A stretch of DNA of 64,000 nt, from assembly GCF_021800405.1 (NCBI RefSeq), contig NZ_CP084551.1:1-64000 (forward strand), written 5' to 3'. The DNA comes from Arthrobacter sp. FW306-07-I. Lineage in GTDB: Bacteria > Actinomycetota > Actinomycetes > Actinomycetales > Micrococcaceae. A program made the translations under genes and the position numbers. The notes under the pieces are model-generated. The model ran no database searches and was not told the origin of the DNA. It worked only from the letters and a program-made list of their open reading frames with translations. Positions 36,162-52,377 of the stretch are shown here, piece by piece; position 1 is the stretch's first letter, and the number at the start of each line of letters is the position of its first letter.

Positions 36162-37103
36162 CTACCGGCTCATGCCCTTTTGAAGGAGCTTTGTCTGTCC
36201 GTTCGCTCCGCGCGTTTTGCGGGCCTTTGCAGGCTTTGGCCCCTTAGCCACGGCTGCGTTGGGTGGTGTGCCCTGGTCCTGGTCGGCGCTGAGCCGCGCT
36301 TGGACAGCTTCGCGGTCGGCGACGCTTTCCAGGCTGGCAGCCAGTGTCTGGCGGCGTTCGGCTGAATCGTATTTGACTCCGGCTTCATGGTGCAGATGCT
36401 CGGCGCGGGGATTGTCGCGGGCGGCTGTCCAATCCCTGATCAGCTTCCTTTCCATGTCCTTTTCCTCGGCGACTCTGTCCGCAAAGTTGTGCAGCTGTTC
36501 CCAGTTATGTGCCTCGATGGGTTTTGCCTCATGGAGCCACGCCAGCGCCTCGTTAAGGTCTTCCTTGGAGGGTGCCTCAACGGCGGCCGCCCGTTCCCTG
36601 TCTTCTCGGTCGGCTTCGGCCAGCAGCTGTGCAGTCTGGGCATTCTCGTCCCGGCCGGCGGTGCGTTCCGATTGGGCTTGGTCGCGGTCCCGCTCGGCCT
36701 TCGCCATTGCGGCAGCCACGGATGCTTCGTCGGCGCCCGGGTTGTCCACGTCCAGGCCGTAGCGGCGTTGCACCTGGTCGCGGATTGCCTCGGCTGCGTC
36801 GCGCGCTGCCGGGTCGTGGTCCTTCCATGCGGTGGCGGTCTCGTGGACCCGTTCGATGTCTCGGCCGCTGGCTGTGTCCCACCATCGGTTGTCCATGACC
36901 GGGGCGAGCTGTGCGCGGGCAGCAGCACGCTCGGCGCCGTACCGGGCCTGCAGTTCCCGGGCTTGTTGTTCCTCGGCCGCCTGGGCGCGGCGCAGCTCTT
37001 GTTCGCGTGTCCTGGCCAGCTGCTCACCGAGCCGTCCGGCGACGGTCAGCCCGACGCGGGTCATTCCTTCGATGGCTTCCTCGATGCCGTCAGATTCACT
37101 CAT
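36162..37103 (-). CDS. Coiled-coil mobilization-associated hypothetical protein
   Basis: 313 residues, mostly charged helix rich in A, E, R and Q (EQELRRAQAAEEQQARELQ, AMAKAERDRDQAQSE), with a basic C-terminus (KGPKPAKARKTRGANGQTK). It lies 18 bases after the relaxase gene on the same strand, so it belongs to the mobilization operon. Likely an accessory to relaxosome or transfer; not recognised as a named family. Confidence 0.6.
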   Translation of the reverse strand: MSESDGIEEAIEGMTRVGLTVAGRLGEQLARTREQELRRAQAAEEQQARELQARYGAERAAARAQLAPVMDNRWWDTASGRDIERVHETATAWKDHDPAARDAAEAIRDQVQRRYGLDVDNPGADEASVAAAMAKAERDRDQAQSERTAGRDENAQTAQLLAEADREDRERAAAVEAPSKEDLNEALAWLHEAKPIEAHNWEQLHNFADRVAEEKDMERKLIRDWTAARDNPRAEHLHHEAGVKYDSAERRQTLAASLESVADREAVQARLSADQDQGTPPNAAVAKGPKPAKARKTRGANGQTKLLQKGMSR

Positions 37104-37121
37104 GGTTCCCCCTCCTGGTGG

Positions 37122-38681
37122 TCATCTTTCAAGGTCCGGGCGGGTGCTCCCGCCCCGGGTGGTCGTGTGGGTACGTGCCTGCTCGTATTTCGGTGGCAGC
37201 ACCGAACCGGCGGGGCGTCCTTGGGTCTGGCCGGCAGTGCTCGTGCCTACAGCTTCGGCCGCTTCACTATCTACAACCGGTGCCGGCGCGGGAGTGCTGG
37301 GCAGCGCGGCAGCGACCTGGCTCAATTGGTGCCTGACCATGTGGCTGATCTGCCGTGCCCGGCGAAGATCGTTTGAGGCCTTGTGCATGTCGTGGACGGC
37401 CTTGGCGACGTTGAGCAGCTGCCGCAGCATGATCGCCTGGGCAGCGGTTCCCGCCCCGCCCATCGTGGCCGCCATGAGCATCAGCGAGGCTCCCCGGGCC
37501 GATGGTCCGACGCTGCGGATAGGCCTGACTGGGTAGCGGCGGAGCTGCGCCGTCTTGGCCAGTTCATCGGCTGCCGCTGCCAGGGGTCCAGGCGTTGGTT
37601 CCGTGGCTGTCGACCAGGCAGCAAACGCCCCCGACGTTTCGCGGGCTACGTGCGCCCAGGTGGCGTGGTCATCCAGCGGAACGGAGCGCAGGTTTTCGCG
37701 CAGCCGTGCGACTTCGTCGCTGTACTGCTCCCACAGTTGCGGGTCCGGTTCGTAAGCTTCACGGCCGACAGTTACAGGGCGCCGTCCGCGGGCTGCTGCC
37801 TGCCATTCGGCGACGGCTTCAGCCGCCCCTTGCGGGGTGTCCTGCCACTCGGTGCGGAGCTTGGGCAGGGCAAGGTCTTTGGCGAGGTGACCGCCGCCGA
37901 ACCAGACCGGCCGGCCACCCTTTGGGGGACGTTCGGCCACGCTGTAGCCGACCACGACATCGTCGCGTCCGGACGCGTACCGTGGCCGGACCAAGGCACC
38001 GATACGGCGGAGACGGCGGACGAATTCTGCCTCATCCTGGGCTGCAGTCGCGCAGGCACGGACCTTGCGTTCCAATGACCGGCGTTCCGGTTCGGGTGCG
38101 CCGCGCCGTGCGGATGCTTCGCGCTCACCGGGACGCAGACCGCGGGTGGAATGCGTGGGTGAGAGTTCTTCCAGGCCGTACTTTTTCTCAAGCTCGCGGG
38201 CTACTTGTTGTGCGCGCGGGAAGTCCCGCCAGCTGCTCCACTTGGTGCCGTCCTCGCGGACCATGGACGCGGCAATATGGATGTGGTCGTTCCCGGCTTT
38301 GCTGTGGCCGTGACGGATCGCGACCCATTGTGCCGGTGCACGGCCGCTGGCTTCGGTGAACCCCATTTCGTCCATGAAGTCCTGGGCGATGGCCGCCCAT
38401 TTCTCGTCAGTGAGGTCGCCTTCTTCGGCACGCAGTGACAGGGAGCAGTGCCAGACATGTCCGCCGGGAATCTCGACACCCAGGACGCTACGGGCGCGGT
38501 CGAGTTCCTTGGCAATGGCCCCGGCGCCCTCAGCGTTCAATTCGTCGTCGTTGTGCCAGGCCATGATCGACGGTGAGCCTGCGACCAGGTGCGGGTCGGT
38601 GTGCTCGTTCGCCCTCCCGGGACCGGCAAGGTATGCGATCAACCCATGCATGCGGGTGCCCTTGGTGATGTTGGGAATCAT
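37122..38681 (-). CDS. Relaxase/mobilization nuclease (MobA/VirD2-like)
   Basis: 519 residues. The N-terminal ~200 residues are the relaxase domain with the metal-binding HIH (NDHIHIAAS, residues 133-135), an upstream HVWHCSLSL and candidate active tyrosine Y17. It would nick one strand at oriT and pilot it into a recipient. The C-terminal ~300 residues include a hydrophobic stretch (ASLMLMAATMGGAGTAAQAIML). It overlaps MobC (ATGA) on the same strand. No mating-pair formation genes are in the window, so the plasmid is at least mobilizable. Confidence 0.88.
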   Translation of the reverse strand: MIPNITKGTRMHGLIAYLAGPGRANEHTDPHLVAGSPSIMAWHNDDELNAEGAGAIAKELDRARSVLGVEIPGGHVWHCSLSLRAEEGDLTDEKWAAIAQDFMDEMGFTEASGRAPAQWVAIRHGHSKAGNDHIHIAASMVREDGTKWSSWRDFPRAQQVARELEKKYGLEELSPTHSTRGLRPGEREASARRGAPEPERRSLERKVRACATAAQDEAEFVRRLRRIGALVRPRYASGRDDVVVGYSVAERPPKGGRPVWFGGGHLAKDLALPKLRTEWQDTPQGAAEAVAEWQAAARGRRPVTVGREAYEPDPQLWEQYSDEVARLRENLRSVPLDDHATWAHVARETSGAFAAWSTATEPTPGPLAAAADELAKTAQLRRYPVRPIRSVGPSARGASLMLMAATMGGAGTAAQAIMLRQLLNVAKAVHDMHKASNDLRRARQISHMVRHQLSQVAAALPSTPAPAPVVDSEAAEAVGTSTAGQTQGRPAGSVLPPKYEQARTHTTTRGGSTRPDLER

Positions 38682-39073
38682 CAGCGCACCATCGAATCCA
38701 GCATCGAATTGAGCCGGTCGGCGACAGCCCGGACACGGGTCAACACGGTGCGGGCAGCTTCCGGGAACTCGTCCGTGGCGTTCGCGTGACGGGCCAGCTG
38801 GTTGACGTTGTTCGACAGGGCTGCAAGGTAGCGGCGTGCGGCGATGAATTCCACCGCCATCGCCCGGCGTTCAGCCAGCGACTCGGAGTTCTCCGCGTAC
38901 AGGGCAGCGCTGACAAGGATCTCCGACGGGCTGCGCCCCGTCCGCGCCTCCAGGACCTTCAACTGCGCGCGCTCAAATTCGGACATCGACACGCGCACGT
39001 ACTGGGTAGCGCCGTCAATGTTCGCCCGGCGCCGGCGGGTGAACCGGCGGGGAGACTTCGGCTCTTCGCTCAT
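38681..39073 (-). CDS. mobC: MobC-type plasmid mobilization relaxosome protein
   Basis: 130 residues. Ribbon-helix-helix-like start (QYVRVSMSEFERAQLKVLEARTGRSPSEILVSAAL) followed by the MobC motif LAALSNNVNQLARHAN. It binds oriT and helps the relaxase open the strand. ATG 39073 is set by GGGGAGGGG just upstream; the longer open frame reaching 39433 runs through the oriT-like palindromes and is rejected. Confidence 0.85.
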   Translation of the reverse strand: MSEEPKSPRRFTRRRRANIDGATQYVRVSMSEFERAQLKVLEARTGRSPSEILVSAALYAENSESLAERRAMAVEFIAARRYLAALSNNVNQLARHANATDEFPEAARTVLTRVRAVADRLNSMLDSMVR

Positions 39074-39099
39074 CCCGTGCCCCTCCCCCACATGCCCAG

Positions 39100-39230
39100 C
39101 GCAGCGCCCCGGAATTTCCGGGCCGACACCCTCAGTGTCGCCGATCAACGCGCGCAGGCCGTGGATCGACACGCGGGTTATGGCACATAACCGCCTAGCT
39201 TGCTCCGGAAAATCGCCTGCGCTCTTATTC
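39100..39230. other. Candidate oriT region with three palindromes
   Basis: Directly upstream of mobC are three perfect inverted repeats: CCCGGAA-T-TTCCGGG (39108-39122), CGACAC-CCTCA-GTGTCG (39124-39140) and GGTTATG-GCA-CATAACC (39176-39192). This clustering next to mobC is what relaxosome origins look like. The nick site would most likely follow the third repeat, but I cannot assign it. The rest of the stretch to 39495 shows no gene. Confidence 0.55.
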
Positions 39231-39495
39231 GGCGCTTTGGTGGTTGTCCGGTACTGCCCTGCAGGACGCTTCGCGTCTGACTTGTTCACAACGACTGCGT
39301 CGTTCCGTTTCGGCTGGGTGAGGCTACTGCCCGGTCCTTCCTTGGCAAGTCTCCGCAGCCGGCTTTCGCGGCATATCCTCGCTCCGCTCCGGTATTCCAC
39401 GGTCCGGCCACTCCGACTGGCCAATTCCTTCACCGGCCAAGTTTCGGCAAGCGTGCCGAAAGGAACGCGGCATAGGGATAGCGAAAGGTACAGTT

Positions 39496-40413: not shown

Positions 40414-41763
40414 TTAGGCTTCTTCGTCCGCGGTTGGGGTACCGCTGTCGAGGATGATTTTTTCAACCTCACTTGCGGTGTATCCCCACGTCACCAGCTG
40501 GTTCAAGTAGTCCCTGTGGGCTTGGCTCGGGGACCGCCATGAGTCCTTCGCGATCGTCTTCTCATACCCGGCACAGACCAGCGCAATCAGGGAAAACTCT
40601 GGCCGTGCCGTGGACTTCGCCACGTGAGTGCGGAGCGGGTTCCACGCCCAGGTCTTCTCCTCGACCATCTTGGCCCCGACCATCCCTGCAGCCACCTCCC
40701 CGTCGTAGCCGCTGGCCGTCTCCGGGTGGTGAGTGATCGCGTGGACGGTGAAGTACTGCCATCCCTTCGGTGCCTGCTTCTTCGCCAACAGGCCGGTCAC
40801 AAAATCACGGCGGACCACCTGCGCGGACAACATCGCTTTATTGCGCTCGATCAGCGTTTTACGCTCGGCCTTCTGTTCCTCGCTCATGGGACCCTTCTGC
40901 TGTTGCTGGACACCGTCGTAGCGTTCGTACTTCGGGACGAAGCCCGTGTCCTTCCACGCCGCGATCACGGAATGCGTGCGGTGCTGGCCGCGGTAATCCG
41001 TGGTGATCAGGACGGCGTTGGCGTCCTCCTCAGTGGCAGGTTCCCCGTCCTCCCTTTTCGCGGCGGTGACGTAAAGGTTCTCGTCGTCGGCGTAATGCCC
41101 GGCGTCCTCCACGATGGTCTTGCCCTGGGCTTCAAGTTCCTCCTGCAGGGCGGCGAGAGCGGCGGCGCTCTCACGCTTATCGCGCAGGAGCTGGGCGACG
41201 TGCAGGAGCTGATCGGGTTCGTCCATCATGACCGACTCGAGCTCCTCAGACGCTGATACGTCACCTTCAAACTCGGCCATGATCAGGGCCTCCTCAATCG
41301 ACCATCCTTTGCCCAGGGCTGCCGCTCCCGCGTCGGAGGACTTGGCCTTCAGTGCGCTTTCAACGGTGGTCCGGGTGCGGCCTGTCTTCTTCGCGATCGC
41401 TGCCGCCGACACCCCGATCAGGGACAGCTGATGGTACGCCTCGGCCTCGTCCGCTTCGGTCAGTTCGGCGCGCTGGATGTTCTCCACCACCTGCGTCACG
41501 ATCCGCTCCGCTTCCTCGGGGGACTGGATGATCATTACTGGGATCACCGGCCGCCCTGCTTCGACGGCGGCGCGGGTGCGACGCTGACCCATCAGCACGT
41601 GCACGGTACCGTCGTCCTTGCGGTGGGCGATGACCGGTTCCATCACGCCGTGTTCTTTGATGCTGGCGACGAAATCCGCGGTGAGGGCGGCGTCCTTGCG
41701 GACGTTGACATCGACCGTCAGGCTGGCCGGGTCGAGCATCTCCAGTACAGGTGTTGCGCTCAT
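40414..41763 (-). CDS. ParB/Srx-fold plasmid protein (ParB-like)
   Basis: 449 residues. ParB N-terminal fold: VLMGQRRTRAAVEAGRPVIPV and VVENIQRAELTEADEAEAYHQL, then a helix-turn-helix (GVSAAAIAKKTGRTRTTVESALKA). The long C-terminal half (WQYFTVHAITHHPETASGYDGE) is not recognised. It has no ParA beside it; the ParA in the window is 20 kb away. A role in partition or in KorB-like regulation is likely. ATG 41763 is chosen because AAGGA of the shared leader lies just upstream; a longer frame to 41952 merely reads through the repeat. Confidence 0.8.
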   Translation of the reverse strand: MSATPVLEMLDPASLTVDVNVRKDAALTADFVASIKEHGVMEPVIAHRKDDGTVHVLMGQRRTRAAVEAGRPVIPVMIIQSPEEAERIVTQVVENIQRAELTEADEAEAYHQLSLIGVSAAAIAKKTGRTRTTVESALKAKSSDAGAAALGKGWSIEEALIMAEFEGDVSASEELESVMMDEPDQLLHVAQLLRDKRESAAALAALQEELEAQGKTIVEDAGHYADDENLYVTAAKREDGEPATEEDANAVLITTDYRGQHRTHSVIAAWKDTGFVPKYERYDGVQQQQKGPMSEEQKAERKTLIERNKAMLSAQVVRRDFVTGLLAKKQAPKGWQYFTVHAITHHPETASGYDGEVAAGMVGAKMVEEKTWAWNPLRTHVAKSTARPEFSLIALVCAGYEKTIAKDSWRSPSQAHRDYLNQLVTWGYTASEVEKIILDSGTPTADEEA

Positions 41764-41773
41764 AAAATATCTG

Positions 41774-41948
41774 TCCTTCTTGTCCGAGAAGTTGGGTGGG
41801 TGGGGCGGTTCGTGGTGACCGGCCAGCTCCCCTTCTCCCCGGCGTTGTTTTGGCTGCTGGCGGAGCTTGCGGAGCTGTGCCCGACGGAGCGCCTGTCCAC
41901 CCGTAAGGGCAAGGGGCGGAAATCTTCGTAAGGAAATCAGCGACGCAG
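41774..41948 (-). repeat. Leader repeat copy 1, gene-proximal part (interrupted by IS110)
   Basis: First 175 bases of the ~372-bp leader repeat, immediately upstream of the ParB-like gene. It carries the ribosome site (TTGTCCGAGAAG... on + strand, AAGGA on minus). The remainder of this copy is at 43840-44040, beyond the IS element. Confidence 0.85.
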
Positions 41949-41969
41949 ACATCTCACGTGTTTAGGAAG

Positions 41970-43199
41970 TCAAGCAGCGAGCTCTGCGGGTGGGGTGAAG
42001 GCTGTGGTTTCGTCGAATTGGGTGTTGGTGGTGAGGCAGTGGTGGAGTTGGCCGAGGAGGCGGTTGAAGAGGTTGCGTTGGGCTGCTGCGTGCCAGTCCC
42101 CGGCTGCGCGGCGGCGTTTGTAGTGGGCTTTGGCGCCTGGGGATCCGGTGAGGGCGGACAGTGCCCACATGTAGCCGACGGTGCTGAGGCGGTCGTTCTT
42201 GACGAATCTGCGGCCGACGAATTTCTTCTTGCCCGAGGCTCTGGTGATGGGTGCGGAGCCGGCGTAGGCCTTCAGGGCGCGGGCGTCTGCGAACCGTTGC
42301 CTGTCGTCTCCGATTTCGGCCAGGAGCCGGGCTCCGAGCTGGTTTCCGATCCCGGGGAAGCTGAGCAGGATCTGGGCGTCGGGGTGGGTGAGGAAGGCTT
42401 CCTCGACGGCGGCGCCGAGCTGGTCGACGGCCTGGCAGGCGGCGTCGAGGAGAAGCAGCAGGCCGGCGGCCTGCTGGCCCATGGCGTCTTCGACGGCCTG
42501 GGGCTGGCGGGCGTGATCGCCGCGGAAGATGGTTTTGATCCGCTGGGCCTGGGCAGTGATGCCGCGGGACCGTCCCGCGCGGCGCAGGGCGGTTTCGATC
42601 CGGGCGGTGCTGAGCCGTGCGCCCGTGCCCGGGGTGGGGGCGATGCGCAGCAGTTCCCTGATTTCAGGGCGGGTAAGGCCGTTCTGCCAGACCGCGCCGG
42701 CCTGTAGGAGGGCCGGGTAGAACTGGCGCAGCACGGAGCGGAGCTGGTTGGCGGTCTGCTGGCGTGCCCAGACCGCGTCCTGCTGGGCGCGGGCCAGGAC
42801 GGTGATCGCCCGCGCCTGCTCGGTGTCGGCCGGCAGGGGGCGGTGCGCATGGGCGTCGGTGCGCAGGATGTTCGCCAGCACCAGGGCATCGCCCGGGTCG
42901 GACTTCTTCTTCGAGACCCCGTGCCGGTCGCGGTAGCGGGCGGCGGAGAGCGGATTGACCGCATAGATTTTCCGGGCGCCGGCGCGCAGGGCCGCGACGA
43001 GCAGGCCCTGGCTGGTTTCGATCGCCACCGGGACGGGGTCCTGGGGTGTGTCCCCATGGTCGGCGAGCAATTCCATCAGGTCCCGGTAGCCGGCGGCGTC
43101 GTCGGTGATCCGGCGTTTGGCCAGCAGCTCGCCGGCGCTGTCGATAATAGCGATGTCATGGTGGCCTTCGGCCCAGTCGATCCCGCAGTAGAGGTCCAA
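41970..43199 (-). CDS. IS110-family transposase (DEDD + serine type)
   Basis: 409 residues. The RuvC-like N-terminal domain has D in CGIDWAEGHHDIA, E in VAIETSQGLL and the D pair in KKKSDPGDALVLANIL. The C-terminal Tnp20 domain has FPGIGNQLGARLLAEIG and the probable catalytic serine in KAYAGSAPIT, followed by the basic RRFVKNDRL region. Such recombinases use an RNA encoded in the element's noncoding end to recognise donor and target DNA. It looks intact. Confidence 0.9.
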   Translation of the reverse strand: MDLYCGIDWAEGHHDIAIIDSAGELLAKRRITDDAAGYRDLMELLADHGDTPQDPVPVAIETSQGLLVAALRAGARKIYAVNPLSAARYRDRHGVSKKKSDPGDALVLANILRTDAHAHRPLPADTEQARAITVLARAQQDAVWARQQTANQLRSVLRQFYPALLQAGAVWQNGLTRPEIRELLRIAPTPGTGARLSTARIETALRRAGRSRGITAQAQRIKTIFRGDHARQPQAVEDAMGQQAAGLLLLLDAACQAVDQLGAAVEEAFLTHPDAQILLSFPGIGNQLGARLLAEIGDDRQRFADARALKAYAGSAPITRASGKKKFVGRRFVKNDRLSTVGYMWALSALTGSPGAKAHYKRRRAAGDWHAAAQRNLFNRLLGQLHHCLTTNTQFDETTAFTPPAELAA

Positions 43200-43839
43200 T
43201 CTGTGCTCCTCGCAGTCAAGGGTGTGTTCTGTTCTCGGGGTGTGCCAGTTCGGATCACGCAGCGCCCTAATTCCAAGACTCGAAGGTCTGCCATCTCACC
43301 AGCCGTTCGTGAAACGAGTCCACTTCGGGCGCCCCGGTCTAACCAAGAGCTCCACGGCTCCCGGAGAAGGAAGGGGTCATCCCGCAGCCTGCACGCCACC
43401 ACGAGAACCAAGTACCACGCCATCAGTCGGGGGTTCCGCCGCCACGCGGGCGGCGGAACCTGGCCGGCAACAACACCGAAGCATTGGCCGGCCCGGTCCG
43501 GGGGGCCTGCGGCGTGAATCCGCCGTTACGCGCCGCTCTTCGTCGAGGGTTCAAGGACCGAAGAGCGCCGGAGGCGTCGCAGCAGCGCTGCCACCGCGGG
43601 AACCCCGATAACAGCTTCCGGCGGGGCCAGCTGACCTGGTCCCGCCGGAAGCGATTTGCGGTCACATCTGGGAGTCCCGCGGTGGGGCCGCCGGTGACCG
43701 CGCCGCTCTGCGTCGAGGATTCCAAGATCCAAGAGCGCCGAAGGCGTCACCACCGGTAACTCCCCCACAGAACCCCAACAAGACAGCCCCGGGAAGAGCC
43801 CCACCACCTGGTCACCTGGAAGCCGCTTAACTACGAATT
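43200..43839 (-). ncRNA. Structured noncoding end of the IS110 element (bridge-RNA candidate)
   Basis: The 640 bases upstream of the transposase have no convincing gene but strong structure. There is a 12-bp perfect stem (GGTTCCGCCGCC / GGCGGCGGAACC, 43432-43460). A 17-bp stem with one G-U pair (GCTTCCGGCGGGGCCAG / CTGGTCCCGCCGGAAGC, 43614-43652) closes a 5-base loop. Two 52-base direct repeats match at 44 of 52 positions (43529-43580 and 43699-43750), each with self-complementary CGCTCTT/AAGAGCG ends. In the IS110 group the bridge RNA is made from this end. Strand and limits are not determined. Confidence 0.45.
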
Positions 43840-44040
43840 AGGAGCGCCGTCGAAGAATTTCCACACCGCAGGCCCCTGGAGGAACGACAGGGGCTGGACG
43901 GGCCGGAGCGGGCACGTACAATCCGTCAGGACAGCAGCCAAAAAGCGTCGCAGACAAAAACGGGCCAGGGGGTCCGGAGCCCTGCGACGGCACCCCCTGA
44001 CCCCAACAGCCGGCCGCGGAGCCTGCGGAGCGGACGCCCG
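43840..44040 (-). repeat. Leader repeat copy 1, distal part
   Basis: 201 bases matching 45808-46001 and the end of copy 3: AGGAGCGCCGTCGAAG, then a CCCCTGG/CAGGGG hairpin region, GGGCACGTACAATCCGTC, and a CAGGGGGT/ACCCCC hairpin, ending GCGGACGCCC. Removed from its gene by the IS110 insertion. The next 160 bases (44041-44200) hold no recognised feature. Confidence 0.85.
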
Positions 44041-44627: not shown

Positions 44628-45620
44628 CTACTGAATGATGCGGCGCTGGTAGGACTTTCCGGGGTCGCGGGCTACGTCAGCGACTCGGCCCTGGATAATC
44701 ACTTCCCGCAACAGCACGGCGAGGCGGAAACCTGCAGCGTCCTCGGTAGCGAGCTTCAGGTACCGGTCGGCTTGGGATCCGCGGCCCTTCAGCCACTGAA
44801 GCCAGCCCATCAGGGTCAGCATCGGGGCGCGCTGCCCGGCCGGTACAACCTTCATCAGCTCGAAGGCGAGGGCTTCCGCGCGGTCCACGCGGTCCCAGTC
44901 GGGACGGGCGGTGAACGTGCCCATCAACACGTCTTCAAAGCTGCCGTTGTGGGTGGTGATGATGTCCCGGAACAGGTAGTCGCGGATGTGCCGGTGCTGG
45001 AATGCCGCCGCCAACTGCCGGGCGGTGTCCGTGTCCAGCGCCGGTGCTCCATCCACGCGATCCAGCGCGGCCGCCCACATCCCGCGGGCGGTGTCCAGGT
45101 CTTCGTCGGTGCCTTCCGGGGCCTGGACCGGTGCCGCCCACGTGCCCAGGAACTCGGGGTTGTACACGTCAAGGTCCGGGGCGGACCCGAAGTAGGTCAG
45201 CGTAGCGTTGGCGTTGCTGTCCCGAACCTCGTCCAGCGCGTTCGTCTCGGCCGTCCCGTAGGGTGCCCAGTGGGTACCGGTGACCAGCAGAACGATGTGG
45301 ACGGGCATCCGGGCGGTGGCCAGCTCGTTCGTGAGGGCCGCGACGTGCGCGGCGTACGGGCAGCCGCTGCCGTGCTCTTCGTCGGTGTACACGATGACGA
45401 CGCTGCCTGTCGCCTTCTCATCGTAGGCCGCGTAGGTGGTCATCAGCTGCGCGTAATCCTCCGGGGCCGCCTCCGCCGGTGCATCCATGCGCAGGCTGGC
45501 GCCCAGGATGCCCGCACGGAGCGTGAACACGACGAAGGACTCCTTCGGCTCGGTGCCCAGCAGGTGCGGGACGGCGGCGAGCAGGTCAGCGGAACCGGAG
45601 ATCGTCAGTTTTTCAGTCAT
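44628..45620 (-). CDS. DUF4192-family protein
   Basis: 330 residues. MTEKLTISGSADLLAAVPHLLGTEPKESFVVFTL is the typical DUF4192 opening, followed by TGSVVIVYTDEE and a helical C-terminal half (GMWAAALDRVDG, MLTLMGWLQWLKGRGSQADRYLKLA). The family is common in actinobacterial chromosomes and plasmids and has no known function. ATG 45620 is chosen over an upstream frame because the conserved leader repeat with AAGGA ends just before it. Confidence 0.8.
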   Translation of the reverse strand: MTEKLTISGSADLLAAVPHLLGTEPKESFVVFTLRAGILGASLRMDAPAEAAPEDYAQLMTTYAAYDEKATGSVVIVYTDEEHGSGCPYAAHVAALTNELATARMPVHIVLLVTGTHWAPYGTAETNALDEVRDSNANATLTYFGSAPDLDVYNPEFLGTWAAPVQAPEGTDEDLDTARGMWAAALDRVDGAPALDTDTARQLAAAFQHRHIRDYLFRDIITTHNGSFEDVLMGTFTARPDWDRVDRAEALAFELMKVVPAGQRAPMLTLMGWLQWLKGRGSQADRYLKLATEDAAGFRLAVLLREVIIQGRVADVARDPGKSYQRRIIQ

Positions 45621-45629
45621 GGGTGTTGT

Positions 45630-46001
45630 TCCTTCTTGTCCGAGAAGTGGGGTGGGTGGGGCGGTTCGTGGTGACCCGGCCAGCTCCCCTTCCCCTCCCC
45701 CGCGTTGTTTTGGCTGCTGGCGGAGCTTGCGGAGCTGTGCCCGACGGAGACCCGTCCACCCGTAGGGCAAGGGGCGGAAATCTTCGTAAGGAAATCAGCG
45801 ACGCAGGAGCGCCGTCGAAGCATTTCCACACCGCAGGCCCCTGGAGGAACGACAGGGGCTGGACGGGCCGGAGCGGGCACGTACAATCCGTCAGGACAGC
45901 AGCCAAAAAGTCGCAGACAAGAAGGGCCAGGGGGTCCGGAGCCCTGCGACGGCACCCCCTGGTCCCCCAGCCGGCCGCGGAGCCTGCGGAGCGGACGCCC
46001 G
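45630..46001 (-). repeat. Leader repeat copy 2 (intact)
   Basis: 372 bp upstream of the DUF4192 gene, nearly identical to copy 3 (47073-47445) and to copy 1 after removal of the IS110. All copies end just before a start codon with the same ribosome-site sequence, so the repeat is a portable promoter-leader for minus-strand genes. Confidence 0.9.
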
Positions 46002-46635: not shown

Positions 46636-47064
46636 TTAGGCGACGTTGACGGTGCAGGGCATCCGGTAGCGGCTGGGGAGCTCGGCGGCGGCTTCGGGCA
46701 GATCGTCCGGGCCGTGTGCCTGGCCGTTCTTCCAGTGGAAGAACGCCTGTTCGGTGATCGCGTCCCACTGGCGGGCCTTGGTCCGGTAGTAGGTGCAGGT
46801 CACGTCGCCCTCGCAGTACGTGGCGACGCCAAACAGGTTTCCGATGCGGTCAGCGGTGCGGGTCGCGGCAACCATCACGTAGGGCCACTGGCCCAGATCC
46901 CAGCCCTCCGAGCCCCAGCAGGAGAGCACGGTCCAGCCGTGCTGTTCGATCAGATCCATCCAGTCGTAGCCGCCGTTCATGTGGTAATCGCCCAGGACGG
47001 TCATGTCCTCGATGGCTTCCCCGGTGTCGGCGAGGGTCACGGTCTTCCTGATTACTGCGTTCAT
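46636..47064 (-). CDS. Hypothetical plasmid protein, 142 residues
   Basis: MNAVIRKTVTLADTGEAIEDMTVLGDYH..., aromatic-rich (YDWMDLIEQHGWTVLSCWGSEGWDLGQWPY) with a C-terminal CTYYRTKARQWDAITEQAFFHW. Start ATG 47064 lies just after leader repeat copy 3. Not recognised; the pattern suggests a small soluble domain. Confidence 0.6.
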   Translation of the reverse strand: MNAVIRKTVTLADTGEAIEDMTVLGDYHMNGGYDWMDLIEQHGWTVLSCWGSEGWDLGQWPYVMVAATRTADRIGNLFGVATYCEGDVTCTYYRTKARQWDAITEQAFFHWKNGQAHGPDDLPEAAAELPSRYRMPCTVNVA

Positions 47065-47072
47065 GGTGTTGT

Positions 47073-47445
47073 TCCTTCTTGTCCGAGAAGTGGGGTGGGT
47101 GGGGCGGCCCTGTGGTGACCGGCCAGCTCCCCTTCCCCTCCCCCGCGTTGTTTTGGCTGCTGGCGGAGCTTGCGGAGCTGTGCCCGACGGAGACCCGTCC
47201 ACCCGTAGGGCAAGGGGCGGAAATCTTCGTAAGGAAATCAGCGACGCAGGAGCGCCGTCGAAGATTCCCGCACCGCAGGCCCCGACGAAGGAGGGGCTGG
47301 ACGGGCCGGAGCGGGCACGTACAATCCGTCAGGACAGCAGCCAAAAAAAGCGTCGCAGACAAGGACAGGGCCAGGGGGTCCGGAGCCCTGCGACGGCACC
47401 CCCAGGCACCAACAGCCGGCCGCGGAGCCTGCGGAGCGGACGCCC
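47073..47445 (-). repeat. Leader repeat copy 3 (intact)
   Basis: 373 bp upstream of the 142-residue gene. It differs from copy 2 mainly around 47262-47290, where the CCCCTGG hairpin region is altered, and by a longer A run at 47342. Same ribosome site and same spacing to the start codon. Confidence 0.9.
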
Positions 47446-49312: not shown

Positions 49313-51262
49313 ATGACAGTACCAACAGCGATTTCTGCAAGTTCTAGAACGACGGCGCGGATCGTCTGGGAAACTGCCGATAAATTTCTTCGCGATGTGG
49401 TCGAGGAAGAGGATTACGGTGACTACATTCTGCCGTTCACGGTCCTACGGCGCTTGGAGTGCATGCTGGCCGACTCCAAAAAAGACGTGGTGCATTTCGT
49501 CCAATCGCTCGGTGAGTTACCTCCCCACTTCATTGATATTGCAGTCAAGGACCGGTTCGGCCTGAGCTTTTTCAACACCTCTCCGCTGGATCTGGTGACC
49601 ATCGCATCTGTAGATGACAACGTTGATAAGTCCGTGTTGAGCTACGTCTCAGGGTTCTCCGACAACATCGCTGATATCTGGACCGCCTTCGAGTTCCCGA
49701 GGCGGGTTGCAACATTGGCCTCCGCGAACCGCTTGCACTCAGTCATAAAGCACTTTTCCACCCTCGACCTCAACCCGGGCCACTTCGCCGATACCGCAAT
49801 GGGCGACATCTTCGAGGACGTCATGTACCGGGCCTTCAACAAAAAGGGCAAGGCCGCCGGTAATTTCTATACTCCGCGCGACGCCATTCGACTCATGGTA
49901 GACATCTTGTTCGCAGCTGACGATGACTCCTTGGTCGGTGAGAGTACATTGCGTTCGATTTACGATCCGACGGCAGGATCCGGCGGCATGCTGCTCGTCG
50001 CCCAAAGTGCCCTGCGAGACCTTAACCCAGACGTAAAGGTCACGCTCTATGGCCAGGAACTTATGCCCTCTGCCTACGCGCTGGGTAAGGCGGATTTGCT
50101 CATCCAGGGAGGCCGTCCGGATGCCATTAAGCAGGGCAACACCCTCGTTGCCGACCTCTACGAAGGCCAGACTTTTGACTACGTGTTGTCGAACCCGCCG
50201 TTCGGCAAGGACTGGTCTGCTGAAGAGGACCAAAAAGCTGTCCGCAAACAGGCCAAAGTTCCAGGCTCCCGGTTCAGCCATGGTCTGCCTGGTACCAGCG
50301 ACGGGCAGATGCTGTTCCTTGCACACTGCGCCTCGAAGCTCAGCCCCGCTGGAAAGACAGGCCACGGCGGACGCGCTGCCGTAGTATCGAACGCCTCGCC
50401 GCTGTTTGCTAGTGATCCTGGGCCCAATGCCATACGAGAGTGGCTGTTGCGTGAGGACCTGATTGACGCCATCGTTGCTCTGCCTGTGAACATGTTTTAC
50501 GGCACAGGCATCGCCACCTATGTCTGGTTCCTGGACGCGGAAAAAGAACCGCACCGCAAGGGCAAGATCCAACTCATCGATGCCTCCGGGCATTGGGACC
50601 CGATAAAGCCCATGGGCGAGAAGCGCCGCGAGATGACCGAACCGAAACGCGAGGACATAGTGAAGGCGTACAAGGCCTTCACAGACTCCCCGATCTCGCG
50701 CATCCTCGCACCGGGGGACTTCATGTTTCGCGACGTCCCGGTCTACCGGCAAGCCCGCCTCGCCACACGTTACAGCGACCAAGCAGTGGACGCACTGCGC
50801 AGCCGACGCGACTTCACCGATGAGCATGTCCCAGTGCTCAAGTCACTGGATGGCACCAGCTGGAATGACCTTCCGGAGACCTTCCCTAAGGCGGCCAAGG
50901 CAGCGGGACTAAAGACTCCCATCGGTCTTTTGGACGCCGTAATGAAAGCTATGGCTGCGCCTGACGAGGCTGCCCCGCCTGCTACGGACCGTAAAGGGAA
51001 TCCGGTGCTCGATAACGGCTGGAAGATGACCGAGCGTGTCTCGATGAACGAAGACATAACCGAGCATATGGAACGTGAAGTACTCCCGTTTGCGCCCGAA
51101 GCGCAATGGGACGAGTCCAAGGCGAAGAAGGGCAACGAGATCCCGTTCACGCGCCTTTTCTACGTCCCAGAGGAACCCCGTCCCTTGGCTGAGATCGATG
51201 CCGAAGTGCAAGCACTCATGAATGAGCTGTCCGAGATGTTCGCAGCGGTGAGGGACGAATGA
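49313..51262 (+). CDS. hsdM: Type I restriction-modification system, DNA methyltransferase subunit
   Basis: 649 residues. The helical N-terminal HsdM domain (TADKFLRDVVEEEDYGDYILPFTVLRRLE) is followed by the N6-adenine methyltransferase domain with DPTAGSGGMLLVAQ near residue 218 (S-adenosylmethionine site) and the catalytic NPPFG near residue 294. It works with HsdS to methylate the recognition sequence, and with HsdS and HsdR to restrict unmodified DNA. A four-base overlap joins it to hsdS. Confidence 0.93.
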   Translation: MTVPTAISASSRTTARIVWETADKFLRDVVEEEDYGDYILPFTVLRRLECMLADSKKDVVHFVQSLGELPPHFIDIAVKDRFGLSFFNTSPLDLVTIASVDDNVDKSVLSYVSGFSDNIADIWTAFEFPRRVATLASANRLHSVIKHFSTLDLNPGHFADTAMGDIFEDVMYRAFNKKGKAAGNFYTPRDAIRLMVDILFAADDDSLVGESTLRSIYDPTAGSGGMLLVAQSALRDLNPDVKVTLYGQELMPSAYALGKADLLIQGGRPDAIKQGNTLVADLYEGQTFDYVLSNPPFGKDWSAEEDQKAVRKQAKVPGSRFSHGLPGTSDGQMLFLAHCASKLSPAGKTGHGGRAAVVSNASPLFASDPGPNAIREWLLREDLIDAIVALPVNMFYGTGIATYVWFLDAEKEPHRKGKIQLIDASGHWDPIKPMGEKRREMTEPKREDIVKAYKAFTDSPISRILAPGDFMFRDVPVYRQARLATRYSDQAVDALRSRRDFTDEHVPVLKSLDGTSWNDLPETFPKAAKAAGLKTPIGLLDAVMKAMAAPDEAAPPATDRKGNPVLDNGWKMTERVSMNEDITEHMEREVLPFAPEAQWDESKAKKGNEIPFTRLFYVPEEPRPLAEIDAEVQALMNELSEMFAAVRDE

Positions 51263-52377
51263 CCGAAAGCGCCGAGGTTGCCCTCCAGTACCTCGTACGG
51301 TTTCGAAGCGGGCAAGATTACAAGCACGTTGTTGATGACGAGGGAAGGGTCCCAGTAATCGGGTCAGGAGGACCCTTTGCGACTGCCTCCTCACACCTGT
51401 ACGACGGCGAATCCGTCCTGTTCGGCAGGAAGGGAACCGTTGACAAGCCGTTGCACGTCAAAGGGCGATTCTGGACCGTAGACACTATGTTCTATACGGA
51501 GCTAAGCGACGCTATCGACGGGAGATGGCTTTACTACTGGGCTACGACAATCCCCTATGGCCTGCATTCCACAGACACTGCAATCCCGAGCATGACGAGT
51601 TCGACGCTTGGACGACTGAAGGTGCCCCTCCTCCCGACCGCTACACAGCGACGCATGGCCGAATACTTGGACCGGGAGACCGCTAAAGTCGACGCAATGC
51701 TCCGCAAGCTTGGTGATTTAGCTGAGCGTCTCCGTTTGCGTCGGGCGACCGCCGGATCCAGGCTGTTTTCAATGGGCTTCGAGAACGTGAAGCTGAAGTG
51801 GCTCATGGACGAGGTGGACATTCGGGCAGGCGAGGCGAATAGTGAACTGCCGCTGCTCTCCGTCTCCATTCACCATGGTGTTCAGTTACGAGAAGAATCC
51901 ACGTCCAATCAGAGAGCGGGTGCAGACCTGACTAGTTACAAGGTCGCACGGGCTGGCGACATCGTGCTGAACCGTATGCGCGCGTTCCAAGGAGGCCTCG
52001 GACAGGTGCACGTAGATGGGTTGGTAAGCCCTGATTATTCAGTACTCAGACCTCATAGCCGCCTCAGTCCTGCTTGGGCAGAACATGCTATGCGTTCCCC
52101 AGAGTTTATTGGTTATATGTCCCAAAGACTGAGGGGGATCGGATCCGTGGATCAAGGCAATGTCCGCACCCCTCGCATTAATGTTCGTGACCTGCTGGAT
52201 CTCCCGATCCCATTTACGTCCCCCGAAGAGCAATACGGCGTGACGAGCCACCTTGACGAAGTCATCGCTGAGATTGACGCCATGCTCGCCAAAGTCCTAA
52301 GACTGAGAGAGCTTCTCACCGAACACAAGTCCGCGCTCATCACTGACGTGGTAACCGGCAAGAAGGAAATCGCATGA
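51259..52377 (+). CDS. hsdS: Type I restriction-modification system, specificity subunit
   Basis: 372 residues. Target-recognition domain 1 spans about residues 10-125, with the conserved helix after it (TATQRRMAEYLDRETAKVDAMLRKLGDLAERL). Domain 2 spans about 165-320, with the second helix SPEEQYGVTSHLDEVIAEIDAMLAKVLRLRELLTEHK. The two parallel helices set the gap in a bipartite recognition site. The site itself cannot be read from sequence. Overlaps hsdR by four bases. Confidence 0.9.
   Translation: MTESAEVALQYLVRFRSGQDYKHVVDDEGRVPVIGSGGPFATASSHLYDGESVLFGRKGTVDKPLHVKGRFWTVDTMFYTELSDAIDGRWLYYWATTIPYGLHSTDTAIPSMTSSTLGRLKVPLLPTATQRRMAEYLDRETAKVDAMLRKLGDLAERLRLRRATAGSRLFSMGFENVKLKWLMDEVDIRAGEANSELPLLSVSIHHGVQLREESTSNQRAGADLTSYKVARAGDIVLNRMRAFQGGLGQVHVDGLVSPDYSVLRPHSRLSPAWAEHAMRSPEFIGYMSQRLRGIGSVDQGNVRTPRINVRDLLDLPIPFTSPEEQYGVTSHLDEVIAEIDAMLAKVLRLRELLTEHKSALITDVVTGKKEIA

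Follow-up and report, generated by a model that had tools for sequence, protein, structure and literature searches.

Why does an IS110-family element keep 640 bp of noncoding DNA ahead of its recombinase gene, and what do the repeated units within it encode? As described by Durrant et al. (2024, PMC11208160), an IS110 bridge RNA holds one target-binding loop (TBL) and one donor-binding loop (DBL) in about 150-250 nt. The locus considered here lies in the first 64,000 nucleotides of contig NZ_CP084551.1 of Arthrobacter sp. FW306-07-I, and this whole stretch is called the window; positions are window positions, and the element with all its features lies on the minus strand. Read from its sequence, the noncoding end very probably encodes a bridge RNA with a tandem array of two TBLs and one shared DBL, giving a single element two addresses.

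An IS110-family element with a long left end

The element spans 41947..43841 (1895 bp, with the CT core counted at both ends), bounds given by an identical chromosomal copy, L001, and by intact empty sites. Its recombinase (409 aa, TTG start, 41970..43199) matches the Pfam domains DEDD_Tnp_IS110 (1.5e-37) and Transposase_20 (2e-16), as well as the structure of the IS621 recombinase, PDB 8wt6 (E 6.6e-7). Upstream of the gene lies the left noncoding end (LE; 43200..43839, 640 bp), the predicted bridge-RNA locus. The right end (RE) is short, with 23 bp beyond the stop codon, core included, and its donor half, GTGAGATGT-CT (41947..41957), is placed by donor-guide pairing and by alignment of copies. 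With its recombinase domains, long LE, short RE and dinucleotide core, the element is a member of the IS110 group.

The insertion site reads, on the minus strand, GGCGCTC-CT on the left flank and CT-GCGTCG on the right. Two uninterrupted copies of this target, GGCGCTCCTGCGTCG, are present in the same window on the minus strand (45799..45813 and 47242..47256), against a mean of 0.04 in shuffled sequence, and it is their presence that fixes the ends of the element. Comparison with them places the insertion at a CT dinucleotide core, without target duplication beyond the core. The second copy, L001, in the chromosome of the same genome, shows no differences over 1895 bp and occupies the site GGCGCTC-CT-TCGTCG. 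The window target falls inside a repeated leader-like segment (41750-41950, 44630-45800, 46850-47260) upstream of several plasmid genes (ParB-like, DUF4192 and others). The same 102-kb contig carries relaxase and MobC genes (36162-39433, Pfam) and an ORF pair (49313-52377) that by eye resembles a type I restriction-modification methylase and specificity subunit.

Layout of the predicted bridge-RNA locus

A preliminary description of this DNA had reported two direct repeats 170 bp apart, identical at 44 of 52 positions, and had suggested that they could be duplicated guide modules. The repeats are recovered at 43529-43578 and 43699-43748 (50 nt, 86% identical, spacing 170), in agreement with that count, and on the minus strand each reads as a complete TBL, in which the 5' stem strand GACGCC and the closing strand AGCGGCGC enclose, in this order, the left-target guide GGCGCTCTT, a hairpin and a right-target guide whose last two bases are AG. 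Both repeats thus appear to carry left and right target guides, as a duplicated module in the predicted bridge RNA should. TBL1 (43694..43752) scores 51.0 bits and TBL2 (43524..43582) 48.5 bits with the TBL covariance model R1, both being among its 19 seeds, and both loops are kept in all four aligned copies. The left guide of TBL1 (43731..43739) fits the left flank GGCGCTC-CT, where the first core base is paired by a U:G wobble; that of TBL2 (43561..43569) is the same. The right guide of TBL1, CGACGCAG (43708..43715), is the complement of CTGCGTCG, the right flank of the window site, and the right guide of TBL2, CGACGAAG (43538..43545), is the complement of CTTCGTCG, the right flank of the L001 site; the two guides are one base apart.

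The single DBL (about 43266-43310) adjoins the recombinase gene and matches the RE/LE junction. Its left-donor guide (LDG), GTGAGATGGC (43290..43299), matches the RE end GTGAGATGTCT, and its right-donor guide (RDG), GAATTAG followed by the handshake base G (43266..43273), is the complement of the LE start CTAATTC. Between the guides sits a hairpin, AGACC..AGTCT (43276..43289), whose positions by eye co-vary in relatives (GGACC/GAGTCC, GGCCC/GAGGCC). The earlier proposal that one loop should pair with the target flanks and another with the element junction is borne out by sequence on both counts: TBL1 fits the window site at 13/13, the right guide of TBL2 is complementary to the right flank of L001, and the DBL matches the junction.

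The other structures in the LE are less constant. A 12-bp stem already noted is indeed perfect (43432..43460, arms 43432-43443 / 43449-43460); it lies between TBL2 and a scaffold arm, and in the other three aligned copies its pairing is imperfect. Also present, as noted, is the 17-bp stem closing a 5-base loop; it lies within 26-nt arms (81%; 43605-43630 / 43636-43661) in the spacer between the two TBLs (43583..43693). This spacer varies in length among copies, and the stem, missing from the close plasmid copy L124, was dropped as a functional unit because it is not conserved. Closer to the DBL is a conserved scaffold hairpin of TBL-like shape, GAGCC..GAGCTC (43347..43360), whose flanks self-pair by eye in several relatives. 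The unit to which it belongs, just upstream of the DBL (GAGCC..GAGCTC..AGACCG), was considered as a further TBL and rejected on this self-pairing and on finding no good target match. The hairpin arm at 43290-43373 has the outline of a TBL, the TBL model gives it 15-24 bits in relatives, and it may be a former loop now serving as scaffold.

The LE folds more stably than shuffled sequence (z -3.2, from only 20 shuffles), and the minimum-energy fold of the whole LE played no part in defining the loops. No Rfam family matched in the window at gathering score. A promoter-like TTGACT-N18-TCTAAT spanning the RE/LE junction is visible by eye in the window, but its -35 is not conserved and no weight was given to it. 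The 640 bp are best read as a bridge-RNA end with an added second TBL and a long spacer.

One to four predicted target-binding loops in relatives

Relatives were taken as the best 80 of 279 candidate loci from one scan of genome contigs; 79 of these (L073 comes without upstream sequence), together with the window element, L001 and L003, make 82 examined loci. The donor-loop pattern is present in 78 of the 82, the exceptions being L047, L080, L083 and L085, and across relatives both donor guides change together with the element ends, the RDG with the LE start (CTAATTCx, CTAATCCx, CTAATGCA, CTAATAGC, CTAATGGG) and the LDG with the RE end (TGAGATG, TGAGGTG, CGAGGTG, TGGGATG, TGGGAGG, TCGGATG).

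The model R1 was built from 19 units picked by target match. Up to E 10 it gives 177 matches in 78 sources. Of these, 164 by inspection fall on the strand of the recombinase gene and no more than about 760 bases upstream of it, some being the scaffold arm. The remaining 13 are 11 weak matches (E 0.39 or more) and two strong ones, both in L051 and 2.2-2.4 kb ahead of the recombinase gene. In L051 the two strong units stand at 110-260 and the recombinase at 2501, with the donor loop in the usual place, and the LE has probably been split by another insertion. Covariance folding with homologues had been proposed as a check on the structure, and the TBL stems pass it: they hold 83 double-change cells against 21.5 +/- 3.7 in shuffles, with none of 500 shuffles as high and a best slid control of 34. 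This count covers the TBL stems, in an alignment fitted to the model structure and so biased towards the model.

The loops stand in tandem, one to four per LE, and 60 of 66 spacings are 86-116 nt. Among 42 elements the length of the LE rises with the number of TBLs, from 339-459 bp with one through 415-488 bp in 16 of the 23 elements with two and 577-686 bp with three to 695 bp in the single element with four. The remaining seven two-TBL elements are the L037 group (four elements, 580 bp) and an Arthrobacter group (three elements, 640-658 bp, with a long spacer). The LE of the window element had been called unusually long, and so it is beside its one-TBL relatives (640 bp vs 339-459 bp in 10 elements). 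All TBL counts are lower bounds, as R1 undercounts L062 and the third unit of the L037 group, which at 12.4 bits is too low for it. In the 54 distinct insertions used below, 12 elements have one TBL, 31 two, 10 three and one four (42 of 54 have 2-4), and every one of the 54 has one DBL, a single place in the LE that fits its own donor guides.

Several loci fell outside these counts. No RE could be recognised in L003, L026, L032, L034, L040 and others, which were left out of the target tests, and L057 and L079 were dropped when their RE match was judged spurious. L026, L034, L040, L045, L046, L048-L050, L052 and others, from Streptomyces, keep the LE and an open recombinase gene with no recognisable right end, and are either decayed or have a different end. 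L084 and L089 have both ends and no TBL by R1. In L116, a relative at 57% identity, four weak TBL-like matches (17.5-18.4 bits), one of which may be the scaffold arm, hint that arrays extend past the close clade.

Target loops fit the sites of insertion

Do these loops fit the sites at which their elements are found? The insertions tested are those of elements with both ends and a TBL; nine were dropped for having the same 16+16 flanks as another, and a fifty-fifth, L164, which has both ends and would score 7.5, was excluded because its left flank resembles the end of another copy. An earlier target test by free search was weak (227 of 1782 swapped pairings passed), and pairings were scored instead in the register set by the covariance model. 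In that register the best TBL of the element itself reaches at least 10/13 in 45 of the 54 insertions, compared with 52 of 2416 pairings swapped with unlike targets, and at least 12/13 in 26 of 54, compared with 17 of 2416; the swapped pairings are not fully independent, since some elements share target families. Elements that gave no seed to the model reach 10 in 27 of 36 cases, several of them being near copies of seeds. At the threshold of 10, use is seen of slot 1 in arrays of one, two, three and four loops, of slot 2 in arrays of two and three, and of slot 3 in arrays of three; in the sole four-loop array none of slots 2-4 was seen in use at that threshold.

Nine insertions score under 10: L012, L013, L015, L024, L039, L062, L063, L115 and L193. 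In L062 free search finds a fitting loop that R1 missed. The site of L013 fits a loop of its relative L178, which L013 does not have. In L015 the left flank fits TBL2 and the right flank TBL1, as would be expected after recombination between copies. L015/L197, L013 and L178 have related arrays from which loops have been lost in different combinations, which looks like module loss together with inter-copy recombination. L043, L044 and L081 show a fit on the left side only and a poor one on the right.

The handshake pairing described for IS621 (PMC11208158) is found throughout: in all 54 insertions the base that follows the donor guide is the complement of the target base preceding the core (51 G-C, 2 A-T, 1 T-A), two of these rows (the window and L011) having been re-read by eye. 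One donor loop serves the whole array, and therefore the target base before the core should stay constant; in 97 of 108 units the left guide ends in C.

Identical copies whose sites fit different loops

Three sets of identical copies occupy different sites. In the first, the window element and L001, the site GCGTCG is matched by TBL1 at 6/6 and by TBL2 at 5/6, and the site TCGTCG by TBL2 at 6/6 and by TBL1 at 5/6. The second comprises L028, L029 and L030 in Streptomyces acidiscabies NRRL B-16521 (1832 bp, 0 differences), which lie in two unrelated target sequences. The L028 site, CAACGTC-CT-CTGGGC, fits TBL2 of three (12/13) and not TBL3, and the L029/L030 site, TYTCAGC-CT-TGGCGT, fits TBL3 of three (11.5 and 12) and not TBL2. 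Other genomes have uninterrupted forms of the L028 site (up to 94% over 122/122 bases) and of the L030 site (up to 97% over 115/122), and those looked at fall in an IS110-family transposase ORF (L203, for the L028 site) and a tnpB ORF (L207, for the L030 site). Two loops of this array are thus directed at conserved stretches of IS110-family transposase and tnpB genes, and the element therefore inserts into other mobile elements. On sequence grounds this second set appears to be the strongest case for one element using different TBLs at different sites. In the third set, L171 and L172 of one genome (1729 bp, 0 differences), the two unrelated sites are TCGCAGC-CT-GAGCGA, which fits TBL2 (12.5), and CTACAGC-CT-ACGGGG, which fits TBL1 (12.5). 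The loops of the first two sets are among the target-picked seeds, so that there the match itself, and not the model, serves as evidence; neither member of the third set is a seed.

The window clade and its history

The window element aligns with three other copies, L011, L121 and L124. Both TBLs and the donor loop are conserved among the four; the spacer between the TBLs, 17-bp stem included, is not. Among plasmid copies from Paenarthrobacter and Arthrobacter both sites are in use, L121/L122 being inserted at GCGTCG and L124 at TCGTCG; the site of L123, GTGTCG, has one mismatch to TBL1. Taken alone, the window clade would make a modest case for two addresses, as these differ by one base.

A tree of 67 recombinases requires TBL number to have changed at least 19 times. 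The window group, which has two TBLs and is represented there by L001, is sister to L003/L032, which have one (support 99/92), and the second loop therefore looks like a separate, later gain. L003 (G000:C1:3920776-3921951) is a 71% relative in the same genome that keeps its LE and donor loop and has one TBL; no right end was recognised, and it may be decayed. L032, in another Arthrobacter, resembles it. With stricter filters R1 is found in 79 of 392 genomes of one genus, presumably Streptomyces by the named matches, and in 3 of 296 genomes sampled from the class, counting the genome of the window itself.

Alternative explanations

How would such an array work? Each TBL would be a full module, with an outer stem, a left-target guide, a hairpin and a right-target guide. 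The array would be transcribed, as one RNA or as pieces; any TBL could load a recombinase dimer and meet, in trans, a DBL dimer from another RNA, as published for IS621, in whose synaptic complex TBL and DBL are thought to derive from two different bridge RNA molecules (Hiraizumi 2024, PMC11208158). With either TBL, together with a DBL, the recombinase could then insert the circular form of the element into a chromosome or a plasmid; the two addresses of the window element differ at the first base after the CT core. If TBLs and DBLs from different RNA molecules can combine, extra loops would for that reason add addresses without cost to donor recognition.

A possible variant, given somewhat less than an even chance, is that the LE yields two separate complete RNAs, each with its own TBL, through seekRNA-like processing, with the DBL as a third piece. 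The transposases of ISEc21 and ISEc11 co-purify with short RNAs derived from the noncoding region (PMC11187229), IS621 recombination proceeds in vitro with TBL and DBL supplied as separate RNAs (PMC11208158), and the regular spacing of TBLs (60/66 at 86-116 nt) would suit it as well. Against it, each LE has only one DBL, and no internal sigma-70-like promoter was found in the LE, a test of little power in actinobacteria. The reading is less an opposite of the shared array than a form of it, and the probabilities of the two overlap.

It is improbable that a single mismatch-tolerant loop does all the targeting and that the second TBL, a passive tandem duplicate, has no function. For the window clade by itself such tolerance could suffice, as the target is repeated and polymorphic, the loops are 86% identical, the sites are one base apart, and the duplication looks derived beside the one-TBL nearest relatives L003 and L032. 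Yet the base that distinguishes TBL1 from TBL2 is kept in 4/4 aligned copies, those on Paenarthrobacter and Arthrobacter plasmids included, and in relatives the loops of an array are unrelated and identical copies sit at sites matched by different loops. That the added sequence is foreign to the bridge RNA, whether as an unrelated insertion, a prospect raised in the preliminary description, or as a repeat family, scarcely deserves credence: it stands for the variable spacer only, whose 17-bp stem-loop is absent in L124, and is already contradicted for the two repeats, which fit the TBL model at 48-51 bits (both among the seeds), match used target sites and have similar extra units in many relatives.

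The shared array is preferred on features of the sequences themselves, namely the ends, the empty sites, the donor-guide pairing, two conserved predicted TBLs, identical copies matched by different TBLs and relatives with 1-4 TBLs. For the window element and its relatives together it can be held with good confidence that this is an IS110 lineage with true guide arrays, in which one to four interchangeable TBLs share one DBL, are gained and lost as modules, and home to several unrelated conserved targets (tnpB, IS110-type transposase genes) with protein and ends unchanged.

Relation to known systems and implications

The arrays share much with the bridge RNA of IS621 and the IS110 group as set out in PMC11208160 and PMC11208158: location in the LE, a CT core, a TBL before the DBL, the handshake base, a recombinase with DEDD and Transposase_20 domains, and a left guide that pairs with the bottom strand and a right guide with the top. 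They differ in that one TBL is described there, whereas here 1-4 tandem TBLs accompany one DBL in an LE of up to 695 bp. A single TBL per RNA is a trait of published bridge RNAs and not a strict definition; the window element has two, and with more than one TBL per LE the locus is therefore called a variant of bridge RNA.

The seekRNAs of ISEc21 (IS110) and ISEc11 (IS1111) are alike in coming from a noncoding region upstream of tnp (in the IS110 type) with target matches on both strands, and in natural retargeting between relatives; unlike the loci here, what Siddiquee et al. describe is one target-matching seekRNA per element, one target-matching unit in each and no arrays, and IS621 at 920 locations with no clear target consensus (PMC11187229, as far as its available text goes). 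TIGR arrays also consist of tandem dual-guide units, in one version as stem-loop repeats, and their authors link them to IS110 by structure. TIGR-Tas are, by contrast, nuclease or binding systems, and the same authors set tigRNA arrays against IS110 bridge RNAs as 'a single two-stem unit' (PMC12045711), a description that the arrays here do not fit. One plasmid match among the relatives is annotated 'IS110-like element IS117 family', which would point to the IS117 (mini-circle) group of Streptomyces, the same host group; the label rests on that one annotation. A 2026 review, in the portions available, still gives one TBL and one DBL (PMC13199778), and no report of bridge-RNA TBL arrays was found in the literature searched, which has bioRxiv preprints and most subscription journals outside its coverage.

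If these are natural arrays, bispecific bridge RNAs become multi-address guides, and the arrays would be natural evidence for free combination of TBL and DBL. They would explain identical copies at unrelated sites and suggest a route to new targets, in which a loop is added and then diverges and the old sites are kept. They parallel the tandem guide arrays of the TIGR systems that structure links to IS110, and may offer a natural design for multiplexed programmable recombination.
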